Shown: positions 39,316-52,552 of the stretch, piece after piece
Layout: every line of letters starts with the position of its first letter
Numbering within the stretch: position 1 is the stretch's first letter
Assembly: GCA_947624355.1 (NCBI GenBank)
Contig: CANQKI010000003.1
Location: 1 to 64,000, forward strand
Source: an uncultured Clostridia bacterium
GTDB lineage: Bacteria > Bacillota > Clostridia > Christensenellales > Aristaeellaceae
Length of the DNA stretch: 64,000 nucleotides
Reading direction: 5' to 3'
Program-made: the position numbers and the translations under genes
The notes under the pieces: generated by a model
The model's input: only the letters and a program-made list of their open reading frames with translations
Told to the model about the DNA's origin: nothing
The model's database searches: none

Positions 39316-40899
39316 GGAGCGACTGCCTCCGCATCCACTTCCTCGGCCGCGCGGTCGGCATGCCGGGCCATTTTGGGCAGCTCAAACAGGTAATTGCCGT
39401 TTTCGTCCATTTTCTTCTGCGGGAAATGGCAAGCCAGGAAATGATCGGGCTCCACTTCCACCAGAGGCGGCGGAACGCGCTTGCACTTATCGCACGCCAT
39501 ATAGCAGCGGGTGTGGAATTTGCAGCCGGAGGGGGGCTTGATGGGGCTGGGGATATTGCCTTCCAGCAGGATGCGCTCCTTCTTCAGGCTGTCCACATCC
39601 GTGGTGGGGATGGAGGAAAGCAGGGCGATGGTGTAGGGATGCCGCGGATCGGAGAAAATCGTTTCGGCCGAAGCCAGCTCCACCACATTGCCCAGGTACA
39701 TGACGCAGATACGGTCCGAAATGTACCGCACCACCGACAAGTCGTGGGAAATGAACATGTAGGTCAGCTTCTGCTTTTCCTTCAGTTCCTGAAGCAGGTT
39801 GATGATCTGGGACTGGATGGACACGTCCAGGGCGGACACGCACTCGTCGCACACCACGAATTTGGGGTTGACCGCCAGGGCCCGGGCAATGGCCACGCGC
39901 TGCCGCTGGCCGCCGGAGAACTGGTGGGGATACCGGTGCAGCATGTATTCCTGCAGGCCGCATTCCGTCATGGTGCGCACGATATGCTCGCGCATTTGGG
40001 GAGAGCCGTATTTGTAGAACCCGTGGGTGGCCACGCCCTCTTCAATGATCTGGCCGATGGTCATGCGGGGGTTCAGGCTGGAATACGGATCCTGGAAGAT
40101 GATCTGCAGATCCTTGCGCAGCACGCGCATTTCGTTGTACTTGAGCCGGGCCAGGTCGATGCCGCTGTCCCGCATGGCTTCGTACTTGGCAAACTCCGCG
40201 TTGCCGGCGTTTTTCGCCCGCAGTGCGTCGAGCTCCGCCTGGCATTCCGCCGTTTCCTTGTCGCAGGCGGCAATTTGGGCGTTCAGTTCGCCCAGCTTGC
40301 CTTCCAGCCGGTTCACCTTGGCCTTACCCTTGCCCATCCGCGCCAGGCCGTCGTGCTCCACCTGCAAAGCGTCGCGCCGGCGAACCAGCTTGTTCCGCTT
40401 CACGTTGGCGTCGTACACCTTCTTGAGCAGGGCGCAGCCTTTGCCGCCCTCGTCCACGGCGAAGAAGCCGCCCAGAATCTTGACGATGGCGTTCAGGCAG
40501 GTCTGTTCGTCGCAGGAAGCCAGGTTGTATTCCTGCAGCAGGTTGAAATCGGCCTTTTCTTCGCCGCCCACTTGATCGATCCGGCTTTTCAGCTCGGCCG
40601 CCTTATGGGAGGCCTTCTGCAGCTTGGCCTTGTATTTGTCCAGATGGGACAGGGTGTCTGCAATGTAATGGGGCGTCGTTTCGTCCAGGGTCGCGCCGTA
40701 ATACATGGTGTTGCCCGCCGTCTGGGGGTAAAGCTGCAGCAGCACGCGGCCCAGCGTCGATTTCCCGCAGCCGCTCTCGCCCACCACGCCGATGGTTTCG
40801 CCCTCGTAAATATCGAGGGAAATATCCTCGTTGGCGCGGACATACAGCTGCTCCTTCTGGAAAATGGAGGACTTCGCAACCGGGAAGTATTTTTTCAGA

Positions 40900-41925: not shown

Positions 41926-43914
41926 TTACCTTTCCCGGTTGGACTTGGGGTCCATCACGTCGCGCAGGGTGTCGCCCACGATGTTGATGCAGATGGTAGT
42001 GATGGCCAGGAACAGGGCCGTGAACACCCACTCCCACCAGAAGGCGTTGATGATGGTGGCGTTATTGGCGCCGTTGAGCATATTGCCCCAGGTGGGCCGG
42101 GGATAGGCCACGCCGAAGCCCAGGTAGCTCAGGGACGATTCCGTCAGCATGCAGGTGCCGAAGCTGAGCATCAGGCTCACCAGCACCACGGACATGACGT
42201 TGGGCAGGATGTGCTTGAAGGCGATGGTGCTTTCCTTCACGCCCATGGCCTTGGCCGCCGTCACGTATTCGCTTTCGCGGGCCACCAGCACCTGGCCGCG
42301 CACCAGGTGCGCCAGGCCGGGCCAGCTGAGCACGCCCAGGATGCACATGATGATGAAGATGCGCATGGTCTCGCTGATGACGTAATGGCCCATGACGGCG
42401 GAGAGGATCATGGCGAAGGGCAGGAAAGGAATGGCGGAGAAAATTTCGGCCACGCGCATGAGGAAAATATCCACCTTGCCGCCGAAATAGCCCGAAATAC
42501 AGCCGATGATGATGCCGATGATGGCCTCGATGATGACGGCCACCGCGCCGATGGTCATGGTCATCTTGCCGCCCTGGATGATGCGCTGGAAGATGTTCGC
42601 GCCCCGGGTGTCGGTGCCGAAGGGATAGCCCTTGAGGCCCCAGCTGGCCACCACTTCATCGTCGTCGGCGGCATAGGTCTGGAAGGAGCCGGCGAACAAA
42701 CGCGTCACGCCCTTTTTGCCGATATCGGCGGGCACTTCGGTCTGGTCGTTTTCATTGCGGCCCCAGGAATACACGTTGCCCAGGTTGGTAAGCCCGCTGT
42801 AATGGTGGGTGCCGCCCACGATCTGCACGTATTTTTCCCCTTCCTGCAGTTCGGGCGCGGGCACGGCGTTCAGGGAAAAGTCGCCCGTGAAGCACACCGA
42901 GCCGTCGCTCAGCAGCAGGGCAATGCTGGTGCCCGTGGCGGTGAGGGCCTCGATGGTGCGGTCGCCCAGGTAGGCGTTGATGGGCACGGCCTTATCGCCC
43001 ACGTTGCCGCGTACCTGGCTGTACAGGTCGCGGGAGCCGGTGTACACTGTTTTCCTGGGCCCGTTGATGCCCACGATGTAGCTGAGGGTAAAGTCAATAT
43101 CGTCCAGGTTCGACATGTTCAGGAACCGGTCCATGTTGGAATAGGTCTTTTTGTTGCCCCACAGGTAGCAGGAGCCGTCGTTCATCAGAATGGCGGTGGC
43201 CTGATAGCCGCAGGTGATTTTCTTGATGTTGGCCACGTCCACGCCGTTGTCCACCAGTTCCTGGGGCATGTAGGCGATGTTGGGGTTCACGTCGTTCTTG
43301 GCTTCGGCCTCGGCCTTGGTGCCGTACTGGCCCAGGGTTTTGGCGCCCCAGGCGTACACCTTGCCGTCCTCGCCGATGGCCACGATATGGTCGATGCCGG
43401 CGGCCACCAGGGCGATCTTGGCATTCTGCACCTCTTCGGGGATTTTGCCGATGTCAATGCCCGTGGTGCCCAGCTGCGTGGAGCCCCACACGTACACCTT
43501 GCCCGCGTTGGACAGGCCCACCGTGAAGGAGCCAAAGCCGTCCACCATCTTCAGGTCCTGCCGAAGCTCCTTGGGCATGGACATGAGGCGCATATTGGGC
43601 GCCATGTTCTGCTGGGTCACCTCGGTGTAAGCGTCGTAATACTTGGGCATGAACAGGGGGCCGATGAACATGATAATAAACATGACGATCAGCACCAGCA
43701 GCGCCCCCACGGCCAGCTTCCGCTCCATGAAGCCGCGGATGATCTGCCGGGTGGGGCTGATAATCTCTTCCGCGTCCCCCGCCTGGGCCCGGGCCCAATC
43801 GTCGCCTTCCACTTCCTTGGCCAGGTGATTGGCCCCGCCGTAAAACAGCCGGCCGAACCAGTTGCCCAGCGTGGAGCCCTTTTTGGAAGCATTCGTTTTT
43901 TTCTTGTCGCTCAT
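41926..43914 (-). CDS. OppC-type ABC permease with internal RCC1-like beta-propeller
   Basis: TM1 then repeated xxVYxWG motifs, then FGTDTRGANIFQRIIQGGKMTMTIG and permease core. Confidence 0.9.
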   Translation of the reverse strand: MSDKKKTNASKKGSTLGNWFGRLFYGGANHLAKEVEGDDWARAQAGDAEEIISPTRQIIRGFMERKLAVGALLVLIVMFIIMFIGPLFMPKYYDAYTEVTQQNMAPNMRLMSMPKELRQDLKMVDGFGSFTVGLSNAGKVYVWGSTQLGTTGIDIGKIPEEVQNAKIALVAAGIDHIVAIGEDGKVYAWGAKTLGQYGTKAEAEAKNDVNPNIAYMPQELVDNGVDVANIKKITCGYQATAILMNDGSCYLWGNKKTYSNMDRFLNMSNLDDIDFTLSYIVGINGPRKTVYTGSRDLYSQVRGNVGDKAVPINAYLGDRTIEALTATGTSIALLLSDGSVCFTGDFSLNAVPAPELQEGEKYVQIVGGTHHYSGLTNLGNVYSWGRNENDQTEVPADIGKKGVTRLFAGSFQTYAADDDEVVASWGLKGYPFGTDTRGANIFQRIIQGGKMTMTIGAVAVIIEAIIGIIIGCISGYFGGKVDIFLMRVAEIFSAIPFLPFAMILSAVMGHYVISETMRIFIIMCILGVLSWPGLAHLVRGQVLVARESEYVTAAKAMGVKESTIAFKHILPNVMSVVLVSLMLSFGTCMLTESSLSYLGFGVAYPRPTWGNMLNGANNATIINAFWWEWVFTALFLAITTICINIVGDTLRDVMDPKSNRER

Positions 43915-44971: not shown

Positions 44972-45098
44972 AATTCCTTCCTCCTTTCCTGGTTCGCAGC
45001 TTGCCCCTTCCGGGCTGGGGATTCGCAGCAGCGCGCCCTGCGAAAGCGCACCGTGGTTTTGCGGGATGAATTATCTGGAAAAGTTCCTTCTAATAAGA

Positions 45099-45127
45099 GC
45101 AGGGTGGGGAGGGAATCCCCACCCTGC
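45099..45127. repeat. Perfect 12-bp stem hairpin, SBP-oppB intergenic region
   Basis: GCAGGGTGGGGA-GGGAA-TCCCCACCCTGC. Confidence 0.95.
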
Positions 45128-45365
45128 ACGTTATCGAAAAAGTGGCTTCGCCGCTTTTTCGATCCTTGCTGCGGAATATTTTCCTCCGCAAAATTTCATT
45201 TTGCTACGGAAAATTCCCCGCCCGACCGGCAAAGCCGGTCGATACGATTTCAGTCCTGCGGACGGCTTTTGGTGTCGCCTTCCGAAACTGGTCTTTCCAA
45301 TCGTTTGAGTCAAGGTAAGGAAAATCTTACCACATAGCCAACTCCATCCTTATCTGAATGGAGAA

Positions 45366-45392
45366 GCGGCGCGCCTTTTTGGGGCGCGCCGC
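45366..45392. repeat. GC-rich hairpin just downstream of the SBP stop
   Basis: GCGGCGCGCC-TTTTTGG-GGCGCGCCGC. Confidence 0.95.
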
Positions 45393-45415
45393 CCTTGTTA
45401 CAGGTTGTTCGCGCC

Positions 45416-47620
45416 TTATTCGGCGTCGGTCAGCCAGTACACGTCCGCCATATCCTTGATGTAGTACGAGCTGTAAATGTCGTACATGGAAGGATCGATG
45501 GTCATGTTAAAGGCGAAGTCATACGCAGCAGAGCTGAAGCTGGTAGCGAAGTTGAAGCAGTTGTAGGTGGGCGTTCCGTTGTAGCTCACGCCGTAGCCGC
45601 CCTGGGTCAGCTCGTCCAGCATGGGGTTGAAGTCGCCGATGGTGTTCTGCACCACGAAGCCGGCAGCCTTGATGTTGTCGTTCTCCATGAAGCCGGTCAC
45701 CAGCTGATCGGTGAATACGTTGTCGGCAGTGCCGTACCAGTTGAGGGCCAGAGGCATGAGGTAATAATCGCCCATGTCGACCACCTTGTACGCGCCGTCC
45801 TTGGAAGCGTAGGTCTTGTCGCCTTCGTACATTTCGTCGGCGGGAATCTTCTTGTAGCGCACGCCTTCCACGTAATCGTTGCCCTCGGCGTCGTACACCC
45901 AGCCGTCGGCCTCCAGCACAGCGATGGCGCTGTCCACAGAGGTGGGATAGGTGTTGAGCACCATGCCCTGGTTCATCGCGGCCTGATACATCCAGGAACC
46001 GGTGTAGTACGGGCCGTCAGTGACGCCGCCGTAGCCGCCGGTGAAGTCAAGGGCGAACTGGGCGCGATCCATGCAGTAAGCAATGGCCTCACGGACAGCA
46101 GCGAACTGCACGGGGCCCAGGTCGGCCCGGAAGCCCAGCTTGCCGTAGCCGGCGCGGGCATAGTGGGTGTACACATACTTACCTTCGTTGGCGGGATCAT
46201 CGGCCAGAGCGATGGCTTCGTCGGTTTCCTTGCCGCCGGTGATGCCGGACAGGACGTCCACGCCGCCGCTGATGAAGTCAGCCAGCTGGGTCTCGCTGAT
46301 GATGCGGCGATACACGATGTGGCCGATCTGGGGCTTGGTGCCCTCATAGTTGCCCTTGAATTCGGGGTTCAGAGCCAGGGTCACCACATGGCCGGCTTCG
46401 TCCCAGCTCTCGATAGTGTAGGGGCCGGAATAGGGATAGCTGTTGTCCTTGTTCCAGACGGCGTCATTGATGGCTTTCGCGTGGGTGTAGGAATCGCCGT
46501 CCTTGGCGTAGAACTCGTCGGACAGGTAGATGCCCTGGCCGTCATCCATGATGTCCACGCCCTCGCCCAGGCACATGCCCAGAGGCTGAGGATTGAAGCC
46601 GCCATAAAGGATGGCGTAGAAGTAGGACGCATAGTCCGCTTCGACGGTCGCGGAGAAGGTGTAATCGTCGATCAGATGGAAGCCGGAGAAATACTTGGAA
46701 GCGACCACCCCGTCTTCGGTCTCCACGCCATCGTTGGTGCCGTCATAGGCCCAGAAGGCTTCGTGGCCCACATAGTTCATGCCGCCGTTGCCGCTGCCGC
46801 CCGCCTGGACGCCCACGGGAGTGGCGCTCATGGGCAGGTCGGCAAGGTAGTTCTTGGCGGTGATGGCGCTGCCGTCGGAGAACTTCAGGTCGTCATAGAT
46901 GGTGATGGTGTAGGTGCGGCTGCCATCCTCGTTGTCCGTTTCGGTATGCTCCTTGACAACGGTGGGGTTCCACACGTAGCCGCCTTCCTTGGTGGAAGAA
47001 ACGGTCTCCAGGCCGGTGATCAGGCTTTGAACATCACTGTCGCCGCCGCCGGGAGAGGAAACGCCAAAGGAGGGGAAACGGAGACGGCCGGACAGTTCAG
47101 TGGAGTTGCCCAGGATGATGTTGTCGTCGGGCTTCTCGCTGGTCCAGTCGATCACGGCATAGGCAGGGGTCCAGTAGGGGTTGGTGGGATGCTCTTCAAC
47201 GCCCTTGATCTGGGCATTGTAGAGATCGTAGTACTCGTTGGAGTACAGGGGGATTTCGGGCAGCAGGGCATTCCAGCGCTGGATGTACAGCTTCCACCAG
47301 GTGGCGTACACATCGTCTTCGGTTTCCCACATGCCGCCTTCGGGCACCTGGGTGTTGTACACCATAGCCATGGTCAGGAAGTCCAGGCCCAGTTCATACT
47401 GCTTGCCATCCTTTTCGATGTAGGCAAAGCCGGTGGAAGGATCTTCCGTCACGTCCGCGATGGAAGTTTCCTTGCCGTACTTGTCGTACAGGGAAATGTA
47501 GTCCTTCTGCCACTCCTTGCCCACCAGGGTCTTGGGCGTGGAAGCGGCTTCTTCGGCGAAGCAGGTCGCGGTGGACAGGAGCATCATCGCCGCGAGAAGC
47601 ATTGCCAACAGCTTCTTCAT
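45416..47620 (-). CDS. Peptide-type (SBP_bac_5-like) substrate-binding protein, apparently circularly permuted
   Basis: Signal peptide MKKLLAMLLAAMMLLSTATCFA; NSTELSGRLRFPSFG; FSDGSAITAKNYLADLP. Confidence 0.9.
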   Translation of the reverse strand: MKKLLAMLLAAMMLLSTATCFAEEAASTPKTLVGKEWQKDYISLYDKYGKETSIADVTEDPSTGFAYIEKDGKQYELGLDFLTMAMVYNTQVPEGGMWETEDDVYATWWKLYIQRWNALLPEIPLYSNEYYDLYNAQIKGVEEHPTNPYWTPAYAVIDWTSEKPDDNIILGNSTELSGRLRFPSFGVSSPGGGDSDVQSLITGLETVSSTKEGGYVWNPTVVKEHTETDNEDGSRTYTITIYDDLKFSDGSAITAKNYLADLPMSATPVGVQAGGSGNGGMNYVGHEAFWAYDGTNDGVETEDGVVASKYFSGFHLIDDYTFSATVEADYASYFYAILYGGFNPQPLGMCLGEGVDIMDDGQGIYLSDEFYAKDGDSYTHAKAINDAVWNKDNSYPYSGPYTIESWDEAGHVVTLALNPEFKGNYEGTKPQIGHIVYRRIISETQLADFISGGVDVLSGITGGKETDEAIALADDPANEGKYVYTHYARAGYGKLGFRADLGPVQFAAVREAIAYCMDRAQFALDFTGGYGGVTDGPYYTGSWMYQAAMNQGMVLNTYPTSVDSAIAVLEADGWVYDAEGNDYVEGVRYKKIPADEMYEGDKTYASKDGAYKVVDMGDYYLMPLALNWYGTADNVFTDQLVTGFMENDNIKAAGFVVQNTIGDFNPMLDELTQGGYGVSYNGTPTYNCFNFATSFSSAAYDFAFNMTIDPSMYDIYSSYYIKDMADVYWLTDAE

Positions 47621-48099
47621 AGGTTTTCCTCCTCTTAAAGGTTTTTCTATCTTCCACGCCCTCTCGGGCGGAAAATAGTCGCATACGGGCGGAACTTGCA
47701 ATTTCCGCCCTTCAAAAATGCAGCCGCCATAGCTCAGCGCCATGTCTTGGGCCTATTTTATTTCAATTTATTCGTGTTGTCAATAGCCATTTTGCGGCCA
47801 TTCAGCCCCTCCTTTGCTATATTTTTGCATTTTTATAGGTTCTGAAATGCATTTTCCCTTGTCTTTCTTCTGATTTGTCGAATTAATTGCCAGATTATAC
47901 ATTTTCCATGTACAATAAAAATACAATCTTTTTTTCCCGTTTTTTCCATGTTTTTCTCCCGCGGAAGCATTGCCGCCGCCCGTCCGTCAGCGGGCGACAA
48001 AACGCCGCCGCGGCGGGTTTTGAAAGCGCACGCAAAAGCTGACGCCCATACGCTGCGCCGGAATTGCTTAGCAGTCATTCGGGGATGAAGCGGGAACGA

Positions 48100-48732
48100 T
48101 TATATTTTCAGCAAATCAGAGAATTTTTCCAGATGCCGGTCAGCCCGTTCATCGTCCCTGGCGTCGCCCATGGCGGCGCAATCGAAGCCGCCCGCCTTCG
48201 CCGCCTCCACGCCCGCGTGGGCGTCCTCCACCACCAGACAATCCTGCGGGCAGAGGCCGATCATGCCGGCAGCTTTCAGGAAAACCTCAGGATGCGGTTT
48301 GGAATGGGTAATGCAGTTGCCGTCCGCCACGGCATCAAAGAAATCCCTGAGGCCGATCCGCTCCAGAATGAAGGGCGTGTTTTTGCTGGAAGAGCCGATG
48401 GCCAGCTTCAGATCTGTCTTTCGCAGCGCTTCCAGAGTTGTTTTCACATCGTCCGACAGATCGGCGGGCGACATCCGCCCCAGAAGTTCCCGGTACCGTG
48501 TGTTCTTTTCTTCGGCAAAGGCGGCTTTTTCTTCTTCCGTATAGGTTTTATCGCTTTTTTCCAGAATAATCTCCAGGCTGGCCATGCGGCTGACGCCCCG
48601 GAGCAGGTTGTTCCTCTCCCGGTCGAAAGGAATCCCCAGCCGGTCCGCCAGGGCTTTCCAGGCCAGATAATGGTATTCGTCGGTGGAGCAGATCACGCCG
48701 TCCAAATCAAAGATAATCCCTTTGTACTTCAT
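48100..48732 (-). CDS. pgmB: Beta-phosphoglucomutase (HAD)
   Basis: GIIFDLDGVICSTDEYHYLAWKALADRLGI; LAIGSSSKNTPFIL. Confidence 0.93.
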   Translation of the reverse strand: MKYKGIIFDLDGVICSTDEYHYLAWKALADRLGIPFDRERNNLLRGVSRMASLEIILEKSDKTYTEEEKAAFAEEKNTRYRELLGRMSPADLSDDVKTTLEALRKTDLKLAIGSSSKNTPFILERIGLRDFFDAVADGNCITHSKPHPEVFLKAAGMIGLCPQDCLVVEDAHAGVEAAKAGGFDCAAMGDARDDERADRHLEKFSDLLKI

Positions 48733-48747
48733 TTGATGACCCTCCTC

Positions 48748-51165
48748 TTAAATCGCAACCTGCCGAAGCAAGGCATCCATTTCGCGGATCGCGTCCCGGT
48801 CCAGCGGCATCGCATTGGCCACCTGCATGGGCGGCATGACCCGCAGTTCGTTATCGCGGCCCTGGCAGGCATAATACAGCGCGGGAACGCGCTGCCGGAT
48901 GATTGCGGCGGCATCAGCGTTATCCAACAGATCCATCATGCGGGAATCGATGGAGAGGGGATGCAGATAATCCTTCGTGGGCTGCCAACGCCAGCAATAG
49001 ACGCCGCCCTTCACTTCTTCGGCATGAGATTTGCCCGGATAATCGGGCAGGACCACCCGCGCTTCCGCCCCTTCGGGCACTTCCGCCTGCACGGTCACTT
49101 CGCCGTGATCTGCAATGCTCCAGGCCACCTTCCATGTGCCCGCCGGAGAATCATAGGCAATGGAAGCGTGCCTGATTCGCCCGTCAATTTTCGGGGCGAT
49201 CAGCGCCTTTTTCCACCCCGGGGCAGCATTTTGAAGCCCCATGATCCGGCTGTAAATTGCTTCGCATACTGAACCGTAGGCATAGTGATTCAGGCTGTTC
49301 ATGCCCGTTCCGCTGATGGTTCCGTCCGCTTCCAGGCTGTTCCACCGCTCCCAGATGGTCGTGGCCCCCAGGTTCACGGCATAGAGCCAGCCGGGAAATT
49401 CCTCCGTCAGCAGCATCCGATAGGCAATATCCGTCATATCGTTATCCAGCAGCACGGGCAGCATCAGCGGCGCGCCGGTAAAGCCGCAGGTGATCCGGTA
49501 GAAATCCCGTTCGATGCGGCGGCGGAAACCCCGGAGCATCTTTTCTTTCTCACGATAGATTCCATGCTTCAGCGCGAGCACATAGCCGGTCTGGGTATCC
49601 ACCGTCAGATTTCCGCCCGGGGACACATATTCGTCCAGCAGCGCGCCCCGGATATCGCTTGCCAATGCGCCGTATTTTTCTGCATCCGCCGTTTCGCCCA
49701 GTTCCCCGGCCGCTTTGGCGGTCAATTCAATGCTGTTCAGGTAATATATTCCCTGAATAAAGGCATCGTCCGTGCCGCCCTTCAGGCTTTGGGGGCCCAT
49801 GCCGTCCTGGGCAAGCCAGTCGCCGAAGGTAAAGGAATGAAAAACGAGATGGGCGCCGCCCGCCTGTTCATCCGCCGTTATCAGATATTCGGCATAATCC
49901 CGCATCATGGGGTAGTTTTCCAGAAGCAGCGCCTTGTCCCCATAATTCATATATACGTTCCAGGGAATGATGGTGCCCGCGTCTGCCCAGACGGCCCCGC
50001 CATGAACGGCCTCGCCCTTGAGGGACGGGCTGAAAGCGGGAATATTCCCCCCGTAATACAGCTGCTGATCGGCGCGCAGATCCCGCATATACTTGCGGTA
50101 AAAATCCTTGCAGTCCATCTGGTAGCAGGCGGTGTTGACGAACACCTGGGTATCCGCCGTCCAGCCCAGGCGTTCATCCCGCTGCGGGCAATCGGTGGGC
50201 ACGTCCAGGAAATTGCTGCGCTGCCCCCACAGGCTGTTTTGCATCAGCCGGTTCAGCTTTTCGTGGCTGGTTTCCGCCTGCAGGGTTTCTTTCAGATCGC
50301 TGGACAGGCACAGGGCGGTGAAATCATCCGGATTTACCGTTTCAACGCCCTCGATCTTGGCGTAACGGAAGCCGAAAAAGGTGAACAGGGGCTCCACCTC
50401 TTTTTCCGTCCCATCGGAGGTATAAACAAATTCGCTCCTGGCCGTGCGCAGATTGTCCCGGTAGAAATTGCCGTTTTGCAGCACTTCCCCGGTCTGGATG
50501 CGCATTTGCTTTCCCCTGGGCAGACGGTTCACAAAGCGAATGACGCCCGCCATATTCTGCCCAAAGTCGATCACCTGCTCTCCGGCGGGGGTAAGAATCA
50601 GCTTTCCCTTTCGCTCCTCCTTCACCCGGATGCAGGGGGAAAACTGGGGCTCCGGCCTGTAATCATTTTCCGCGATCACGCAGGGAACGGCTTCGCCCGT
50701 TCCGCGGGTGTCGTCCCGGATTTCCCCGTCATAAATGCCCCCGTCCACAATGGGAGAGGAAGACGCCAGCCAGCTTTCGTCGGTTTCGACGGTCACCGTT
50801 TCGCCGCCTGTCAGAGTGATTTCCAATTGAACCGCCAGCAGGTACCGTTCTCCCCAGCGGTTGGTTTTCCCGCCGTCAAAGCCCAAACGCCCTTTATACC
50901 AGCCGTTTCCCAGCCAGACCTCCAGCCGGTTTTGGGATTGCAGCAGATTTGTCACGTCATAGGTCTGAACCCGCAGATAAGCGTCGTAATCGTTAAATCC
51001 GGGCGTCAGGTAATCCCGCCCGATCCGCTTGCCGTTCAGAAAAGCCCGGTAAAGGCCCAGGCCGGTAATCCGAAGCTCCGCCTTTTGTGCTTCACGAACG
51101 GCAAAGTCCTTCCACAGCCTGGGGCAGGAAATGGGCTTTTTCGGGGTAATCATACGAAACGGCAT
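48748..51165 (-). CDS. Alpha-L-rhamnosidase, GH78
   Basis: FLDVPTDCPQRDERLGWTADTQVF; GNGWYKGRLGF; GATTIWERWNSL. Confidence 0.95.
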   Translation of the reverse strand: MPFRMITPKKPISCPRLWKDFAVREAQKAELRITGLGLYRAFLNGKRIGRDYLTPGFNDYDAYLRVQTYDVTNLLQSQNRLEVWLGNGWYKGRLGFDGGKTNRWGERYLLAVQLEITLTGGETVTVETDESWLASSSPIVDGGIYDGEIRDDTRGTGEAVPCVIAENDYRPEPQFSPCIRVKEERKGKLILTPAGEQVIDFGQNMAGVIRFVNRLPRGKQMRIQTGEVLQNGNFYRDNLRTARSEFVYTSDGTEKEVEPLFTFFGFRYAKIEGVETVNPDDFTALCLSSDLKETLQAETSHEKLNRLMQNSLWGQRSNFLDVPTDCPQRDERLGWTADTQVFVNTACYQMDCKDFYRKYMRDLRADQQLYYGGNIPAFSPSLKGEAVHGGAVWADAGTIIPWNVYMNYGDKALLLENYPMMRDYAEYLITADEQAGGAHLVFHSFTFGDWLAQDGMGPQSLKGGTDDAFIQGIYYLNSIELTAKAAGELGETADAEKYGALASDIRGALLDEYVSPGGNLTVDTQTGYVLALKHGIYREKEKMLRGFRRRIERDFYRITCGFTGAPLMLPVLLDNDMTDIAYRMLLTEEFPGWLYAVNLGATTIWERWNSLEADGTISGTGMNSLNHYAYGSVCEAIYSRIMGLQNAAPGWKKALIAPKIDGRIRHASIAYDSPAGTWKVAWSIADHGEVTVQAEVPEGAEARVVLPDYPGKSHAEEVKGGVYCWRWQPTKDYLHPLSIDSRMMDLLDNADAAAIIRQRVPALYYACQGRDNELRVMPPMQVANAMPLDRDAIREMDALLRQVAI

Positions 51166-51178
51166 CTCCATTCCTCCT

Positions 51179-52552
51179 TCATTCATCGTGTTCATGCGCA
51201 TACAGGTTTTCCCCATTGGTTTGGATGACCCGGGCATACCAGGCGGCCGAATCCTTCAGGGTTCTTTTTTGCGTGCGGTAATCCACATAAATCAGGCCAA
51301 AGCGCGGATCGTAGCCCCGGCTCCATTCCAGGTTGTCCATAATGGACCAATGGTGATATCCCAGGACCGGCACGCCGTCTTCTATGGCTTTTCCAAGGGA
51401 CAGCAGGTAGCGATGCAGAAAATCGATCCGCTGCATATCGTGCACATGCCCGTCAAGGGAAACCCAGTCCATGCCGGCCATGCCGTTTTCGGTAATCATG
51501 ATGGGCTTTCCGTACCGTTCATAGAAAAACTTGGGGGCATAGTACATAACTTCCGGGGTCACATTCCAATCCAGCGTGGTTTTCGGGCTGCCCTGATAAG
51601 CATCCTCCTGATACCCGTCCTGCGGCGCAGGGTAACTTACGGCACCCTGATATACATTGAACCCGTAAAAGTCAAGCGGCTGGGCAATCATATCCCATTC
51701 TTCCCGGGTAAAACGGGGCAGCCTGTTTCCGAACAATGCTTCCGCTTCGCTGCTGAACCGCCCCAGAAAAATGGGATCGGCCCACCAGCTGTTGCCCAGC
51801 GTATAGGCCCCCGGCAGCACGGCAAAGGATGCCTTGCGCGCGGCCTCGACGTCTTCCGGGGAATTGCTCCGGGGAAGGGGCACGTCGCCTGTCGGCGCCA
51901 TGCCGATCATCAGCGGCTGTTTTCCCTCCTGGCGAAGCGCGGAAACCGCACGGCCATGGGCCAGATAAAAATGTCTGCTGATGCGAAGGACCGTATCCTC
52001 ATCGTTCTGCTCAAAGGGGGCCATGGCGCCGATTTGCAATCCCAATCCAATAAACATCTGGGGTTCATTGAATGTGATCCAGCGCTTCACCCGATCGGAC
52101 AGACGCCTCGCCACGACCCGGGCATACGCTTCAAACCACTTGGGCGAATCGGGGTTCTTCCAGCCGCCCTGTTCATAGAGCGCCTGCGGAAGATCCCAGT
52201 GATAAAGCGTCACCATCGGTTCAATGCCCGCTTCCAGCAGCGCATCCACCAGATCGGAATAAAACTGTAATCCTTTTTCGTTCACCCGGCCAATCCCATC
52301 CGGCAGCACACGCGCCCAGCTGATGGAAAAACGATAGCTTTTCAGCCCGATTTTTTTCATCAGCGCCACGTCTTCCCGCCAGCGGTGATAGTGATCGCAG
52401 GCGATGTCGCCCGTTTCTCCATGCACGATACGGCCCGGTTCATGGGAAAAATGATCCCAGATGCTTTCTTTTTTCCCGTCCTCCAGGTAAGCGCCCTCTA
52501 CCTGATAGGCCGCGGAGGAAGCGCCCCAGAGAAAATCCTTCGGAAAAGGCAT
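51179..52552 (-). CDS. GH1 beta-glucosidase
   Basis: FLWGASSAAYQVEGA; TFNEPQMF; IMITENGMAG. Confidence 0.97.
   Translation of the reverse strand: MPFPKDFLWGASSAAYQVEGAYLEDGKKESIWDHFSHEPGRIVHGETGDIACDHYHRWREDVALMKKIGLKSYRFSISWARVLPDGIGRVNEKGLQFYSDLVDALLEAGIEPMVTLYHWDLPQALYEQGGWKNPDSPKWFEAYARVVARRLSDRVKRWITFNEPQMFIGLGLQIGAMAPFEQNDEDTVLRISRHFYLAHGRAVSALRQEGKQPLMIGMAPTGDVPLPRSNSPEDVEAARKASFAVLPGAYTLGNSWWADPIFLGRFSSEAEALFGNRLPRFTREEWDMIAQPLDFYGFNVYQGAVSYPAPQDGYQEDAYQGSPKTTLDWNVTPEVMYYAPKFFYERYGKPIMITENGMAGMDWVSLDGHVHDMQRIDFLHRYLLSLGKAIEDGVPVLGYHHWSIMDNLEWSRGYDPRFGLIYVDYRTQKRTLKDSAAWYARVIQTNGENLYAHEHDE

Follow-up and report, generated by a model that had tools for sequence, protein, structure and literature searches.

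An OppC-type permease carrying an RCC1-type beta-propeller in its first extracellular loop: a candidate built-in receptor for the solute-binding protein

In the usual depiction of Type I ABC importers, the extracellular portions are minimal. The window, which is the whole stretch of 64,000 nucleotides analysed here from an uncultured Clostridia bacterium, contains an oppC gene that departs from this picture: a large extra domain is lodged between the first transmembrane helix (TM1) and the GTDxxG motif of the encoded permease. What is this domain, how widely is it kept, and what might a peptide transporter use it for?

The oppC gene and its inserted propeller

An earlier note, made from the letters of this DNA, had described an uninterrupted frame of 662 amino acids at 41926-43914 without giving its strand. 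The frame is indeed single and intact, and lies on the minus strand with its ATG at 43914 and its stop at 41926-41928. A Pfam scan, which the note had proposed for RCC1 together with BPD_transp_1, detected both, plus OppC_N. The OppC_N match covers residues 53-106 (1.5e-8, 34.8 bits versus a curated cut-off of 23.9) and that of BPD_transp_1 residues 467-657 (3.2e-31, 108.9 bits versus 26.4). The best NCBIfam matches are the Opp4C, Opp3C and OppC equivalogs, from about residue 424 onward only, and none of these equivalog cut-offs is reached by the window OppC. Upon a phmmer search of the PDB, OppC and DppC chains matched residues 405-659, and UVR8, RCC1 and BLIP-II matched the propeller. In the hydropathy profile, TM1 is the sole hydrophobic segment before residue 450; the next stretch begins at residue 455 and no hydrophobic segment is found over residues 90-430. 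The GTDxxG motif is present before TM2, the R and D of GTDxxGRD being altered in the window and its close relatives (GTDTRGAN). With OppC_N, BPD_transp_1, GTDxxG and the operon partners, the protein is an OppC-type permease. It shares TM1, the GTDxxG motif, the core membrane domain and the OppB, OppD, OppF and solute-binding protein (SBP) partners with OppC, DppC and NikC permeases (chains 8z21, 8z1v, 8wd9, 8j5q), but differs from ordinary ones by the propeller of about 310 residues between TM1 and GTDxxG.

Table 1. Features of the operon and its upstream neighbours, in window coordinates
Feature	Position	Strand	Evidence or remark
oppF, ATPase, 540 aa	39312..40934	-	ORF and profiles
OppF insert of ~160 aa after Walker A, residues ~92-256	40167..40661	-	Pfam, length comparison
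oppD, ATPase, 337 aa	40900..41913	-	ORF and profiles
oppC, 662 aa, OppC permease with inserted RCC1 propeller	41926..43914	-	ORF and profile searches
GTDTRGAN motif and core BPD_transp_1 membrane domain, residues 427-662	41929..42636	-	Profiles, alignment
Seven-bladed RCC1-type beta-propeller, residues 119-426	42637..43560	-	Pfam, AF2, Foldseek
Linker ('stalk') joining TM1 to blade 1, residues 89-118	43561..43650	-	Alignment of 18 homologues, conservation
TM1, residues 67-85, inside the OppC_N domain	43660..43716	-	Hydropathy and Pfam
oppB, partner permease, 347 aa	43928..44971	-	ORF and profiles
SBP-oppB spacer, strongly structured RNA	44972..45415	-	Folding versus shuffles, z -8.3
SBP (SBP_bac_5, cluster C)	45416..47743	-	Likely start 47620
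Circularly permuted SBP segment, residues 79-165 of the 734-aa form	47126..47386	-	Homologous segment is C-terminal in non-permuted relatives
HAD hydrolase, upstream, same strand as the operon	48103-48732	-	
GH78 alpha-L-rhamnosidase, upstream, same strand as the operon	48751-51237	-	

The insert was described in the note as about 305 residues with seven repeats, in the approximate range 42625..43542, which Pfam and the AF2 model bear out. RCC1_2 is found in four stretches (2.3e-18, 65.9 bits versus a cut-off of 22) and RCC1 at 2.2e-13 (51 bits versus 21.7). The whole-domain model WD40_RLD, 'RCC1-like domain', gives 1.8e-33, yet stays under its own curated cut-off (116.8 versus 150 bits). The structure prediction that the note had suggested was run with AF2 on the window OppC and 18 homologues. 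It yields a propeller, with seven sets of short strands over residues 121-425 and pLDDT by block mostly around 80-93 over residues 111-420. The membrane domain is poorly predicted (pLDDT of about 45), probably due to the shallow alignment and the missing partner subunit. Searching Foldseek with the predicted propeller returned UVR8 (E 2e-13), BLIP-II, RPGR, HERC2 and the ectodomains of plant ACR4/CR4, the TM-score to BLIP-II (3qi0) being 0.73 when normalised to BLIP-II. The strand pattern and this score over the whole of BLIP-II point to a closed propeller with seven blades. The window propeller has the seven blades and xGxVYxWG repeats of these proteins, which it matches with Foldseek E values of 1e-9 to 1e-13, but unlike the known RCC1-fold propellers it sits inside a polytopic membrane transporter subunit. 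The linker that connects it to TM1 is well conserved among close relatives.

OppC is oriented with its N-terminus inside and its TM1-TM2 loop in the extracytoplasmic space, and the propeller therefore faces outward, as the note had anticipated. This type of propeller is best known from eukaryotic RCC1; the Ran GEF activity of the latter is not expected of an extracellular domain. Inspection of the conserved propeller positions revealed neither a catalytic-looking invariant set nor a pocket-like set of residues. The conserved residues look structural, which fits a binding scaffold.

Distribution and operon context

The OppC-propeller architecture is kept at 76 homologous loci and is conserved far beyond chance. 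Full-length homologues occur in the family, order, class and phylum of the window; 17 named genome contigs also carry them, at 47-74% identity. At the order level, 23 full-length or near full-length matches and two partial ones were found in 297 genomes. A plasmid collection that was also searched gave a core-permease match only. An assembly error joining two frames, which the note had named as a possible artefact, is ruled out by the 76 homologues, their independent assemblies and the single-contig genomes among the carriers (G399, G417). When the GTDxxG motif is located by pattern, which succeeds in all intact RCC1-type frames except one, it falls mostly at residues 374-466 of the 76 proteins, with GTD at residue 433 in the window; most ordinary OppC from that family have it at residues 58-127.

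When the core membrane domains are placed in a maximum-likelihood tree, all 76 RCC1-type OppC form one clade (support 100/98), to which neither ordinary OppC nor a third class, with an alternative insert, belongs. The simplest reading of this tree is that the propeller was gained by one insertion event; it is found today across many Bacillota. The third class (L073-L083, e.g. L076:6020-7795) carries a different insert of about 290 residues in the same TM1-TM2 loop; it has FxxDGxxY-type repeats and matches no Pfam family and no PDB sequence.

No other part of the system evolves as fast as the propeller, whose mean majority-residue frequency is 0.45 versus 0.71 for the membrane domain, as would be seen if a neutral insertion were hitchhiking without function. 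This explanation is nevertheless highly improbable, as the domain is kept in 76 divergent operons from many families with its RCC1 signatures intact, and no loss was seen within the clade.

The phylogenomic survey advocated in the note also gives a constant operon. The gene order SBP-OppB-OppC(RCC1)-OppD-OppF is found at every RCC1 locus on a long enough contig; a few contigs stop early. Most RCC1-type operons encode an OppF of about 470-600 residues; L071 (333 aa) and L149 (362 aa) are among the exceptions. The added length stems from an insert, which in the window protein has about 160 residues and follows Walker A. Where an operon of the family is of the ordinary or alternative-insert kind, OppF mostly has about 320-380 residues. 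The insert has no convincing Pfam family; most RCC1-type operons have it, and none of the ordinary or alternative-insert Opp operons that were examined does. The spacer between the SBP gene and oppB contains a 12-bp stem-loop followed by a U-containing tail (45127-45099, minus strand) and has no match in Rfam. The stem-loop is possibly an attenuator between the SBP and permease genes. Control of stoichiometry is reported for other clostridial ABC operons (PMC9045158), and by analogy the spacer may serve the same end.

Genes of the oligopeptidase F/M3 type flank ten RCC1 loci from several clades (checked with Pfam for two of them), which suggests oligopeptides as substrates. The GH78 and HAD neighbours of the window do not recur at other RCC1 loci, and a substrate deduced from them was dropped for this reason.

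Permutation and anchoring of the solute-binding protein

From residue 167 onward, the window SBP aligns by BLAST with residues 44-563 of the SBP from another RCC1 operon (L132; E 5e-102), and its residues 79-157 align with residues 566-634 of that SBP (E 3e-14, 60.5 bits; the best of 50 shuffles reached 28.5 bits). Likewise, the stretch LLPEIPLYSNEYYDxYNA is near the N-terminus in the window clade, and its equivalent is at the C-terminus in other RCC1 operons. Judged from these alignments, the SBP of the window clade is a natural circular permutation. The 30 operons with a permuted SBP, namely the window, L037-L053, L055, L131, L141-L149 and L160, form one nested clade in the core-domain tree (100/98). 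In a search of 297 genomes, matches covering the permuted arrangement were obtained only from genomes that also carry RCC1-OppC. One genome (G235) encodes a second permuted SBP of 787 residues (L191:3920-6280), with a lipobox-like signal and no Opp permease gene beside it. A circular permutation that arose naturally in the SBP of an ABC importer is known from cluster B, in Tp0684/MglB-2 ('Cluster Bc', PMC4990184). The window SBP differs from it in belonging to cluster C (SBP_bac_5) and in being tied to one transporter clade.

With its start at 47620, the window SBP has a signal peptide, MKKLLAMLLAAMMLLSTATCFA, without a lipobox. By the simple pattern used for lipobox calls, other SBPs of the window's family (f1) also lack one, so that the propeller might make up for the missing lipid anchor and keep a secreted SBP at the cell. 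This is the most improbable of the explanations considered. The RCC1 operons outside f1 mostly have SBPs with a lipobox, and most ordinary Opp SBPs of f1 are devoid of it in operons that have no propeller (L167-L186), even though 58/60 genomes of the family have Lgt and 50/60 have LspA. Whether a lipobox is missing depends on the family and not on the propeller, and a role as lipid-anchor substitute is mostly refuted.

Branch rates and the proposed docking role

Distance matrices were compared between the parts of the transporter. In the set of permuted operons, the correlation was 0.92 for propeller and SBP versus 0.69 for propeller and its own membrane domain; the 'non-permuted' set of this comparison includes one permuted locus, L131. 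As distances are not independent, a single fixed tree of 63 operons, itself derived from these proteins, was then used to re-estimate the branch lengths part by part, with the OppF insert left out. OppD with OppF and the membrane domains of OppB with OppC are known contacts, and their partial correlations were 0.74 and 0.58, respectively. The propeller and the SBP gave 0.49 (bootstrap 0.30-0.62, permutation p 2e-4), and the propeller and its own membrane domain 0.06. The propeller-SBP link is recovered when permuted and non-permuted operons are analysed apart, when terminal branches are taken and when ranks replace values. After addition of the OppB extracellular loop, a weak control since it is short (80 columns), values of 0.45 for propeller-SBP versus 0.20 for propeller-OppB loop were obtained. 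The main doubt is that a shared compartment or composition could inflate the correlation, both parts being fast-evolving.

That the rate of the propeller tracks that of the SBP suggests a built-in docking site. The note had offered docking of the SBP as one of three roles; rate covariation gives it independent support, which the other two, substrate receptor and cell-wall contact, do not gain. Physical contact between propeller and SBP is presumed. The structural neighbours of the propeller that bind proteins, in BLIP-II, RPGR and HERC2 complexes, also count for docking. Against it, most importers dock their SBPs without such a domain, and tethering alone is unneeded as the SBPs of most families outside that of the window are already lipoproteins.

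The propeller could instead be a steric lid or spacer, shaping access to the pore or keeping the transporter off the cell wall or S-layer with no specific partner. That this OppC loop holds an unrelated insert in another clade hints that bulk might matter, but a passive spacer is not expected to covary with the SBP above its own membrane domain, and this alternative is quite improbable.

An external ligand, such as peptidoglycan, a glycan, a host or dietary polymer, or the peptide substrates themselves, might also be bound, which would anchor the transporter at its food or pre-capture the substrate, and the SBP would covary through the same substrate. RCC1-like propellers form ectodomains of plant receptor kinases, with ACR4/CR4 among the structural matches; the propeller surface is variable over a kept core; the named members are gut or rumen-type MAGs; and the window operon adjoins the rhamnosidase gene. 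The lack of a conserved pocket-like residue set and the non-recurrence of the rhamnosidase and HAD neighbours weigh against this explanation, which is unlikely.

The somewhat favoured reading is an SBP-dependent oligopeptide importer in which the propeller is an added receptor for the SBP. Having entered the extracellular loop between TM1 and TM2 of OppC in one event, the RCC1-type propeller would project above the OppBC pore. The SBP would load a peptide and be bound by the faces or edges of the propeller, which would raise its local concentration and orient it over the pore; held in this way, the SBP would hand the peptide to OppBC. In this role the propeller would be the counterpart of MalF-P2 in the maltose importer.

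MalF-P2 of the maltose importer contacts MalE (PMC3150292). Like MalF-P2 (PMC3150292, PMC8134467), the propeller is a large extracytoplasmic domain in one permease subunit, the SBP contact being known for MalF-P2 and presumed here. It differs by its unrelated fold, its other loop and its other transporter family, and the two are not homologous. A fuller account, put forward tentatively as somewhat short of an even chance, is that the propeller was captured once as an integral SBP receptor coevolving with the SBP, that the SBP of a nested lineage was permuted on this platform, and that a second, unrelated solution to the role of MalF-P2 arose, with possible use of orphan SBPs.

Domain databases probably list the combination of RCC1 with a permease. 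In the literature searched, which covered few subscription journals, no description or characterisation of an RCC1 propeller in an ABC permease was found, although the note had allowed for the architecture being already well characterised. In this clade a permease gained a large domain of the binding type once and retained it throughout many families of Bacillota; its SBP follows the domain in evolutionary rate and was even permuted. As the domain is soluble and could be isolated, the way in which permeases select and hold their SBPs becomes directly testable, and the permuted clade makes it possible to ask if circular permutation changes how the SBP docks.

The genome of the window also encodes a second RCC1-repeat protein of about 390 residues, with an apparent signal peptide (L001, G000:C14:26994).
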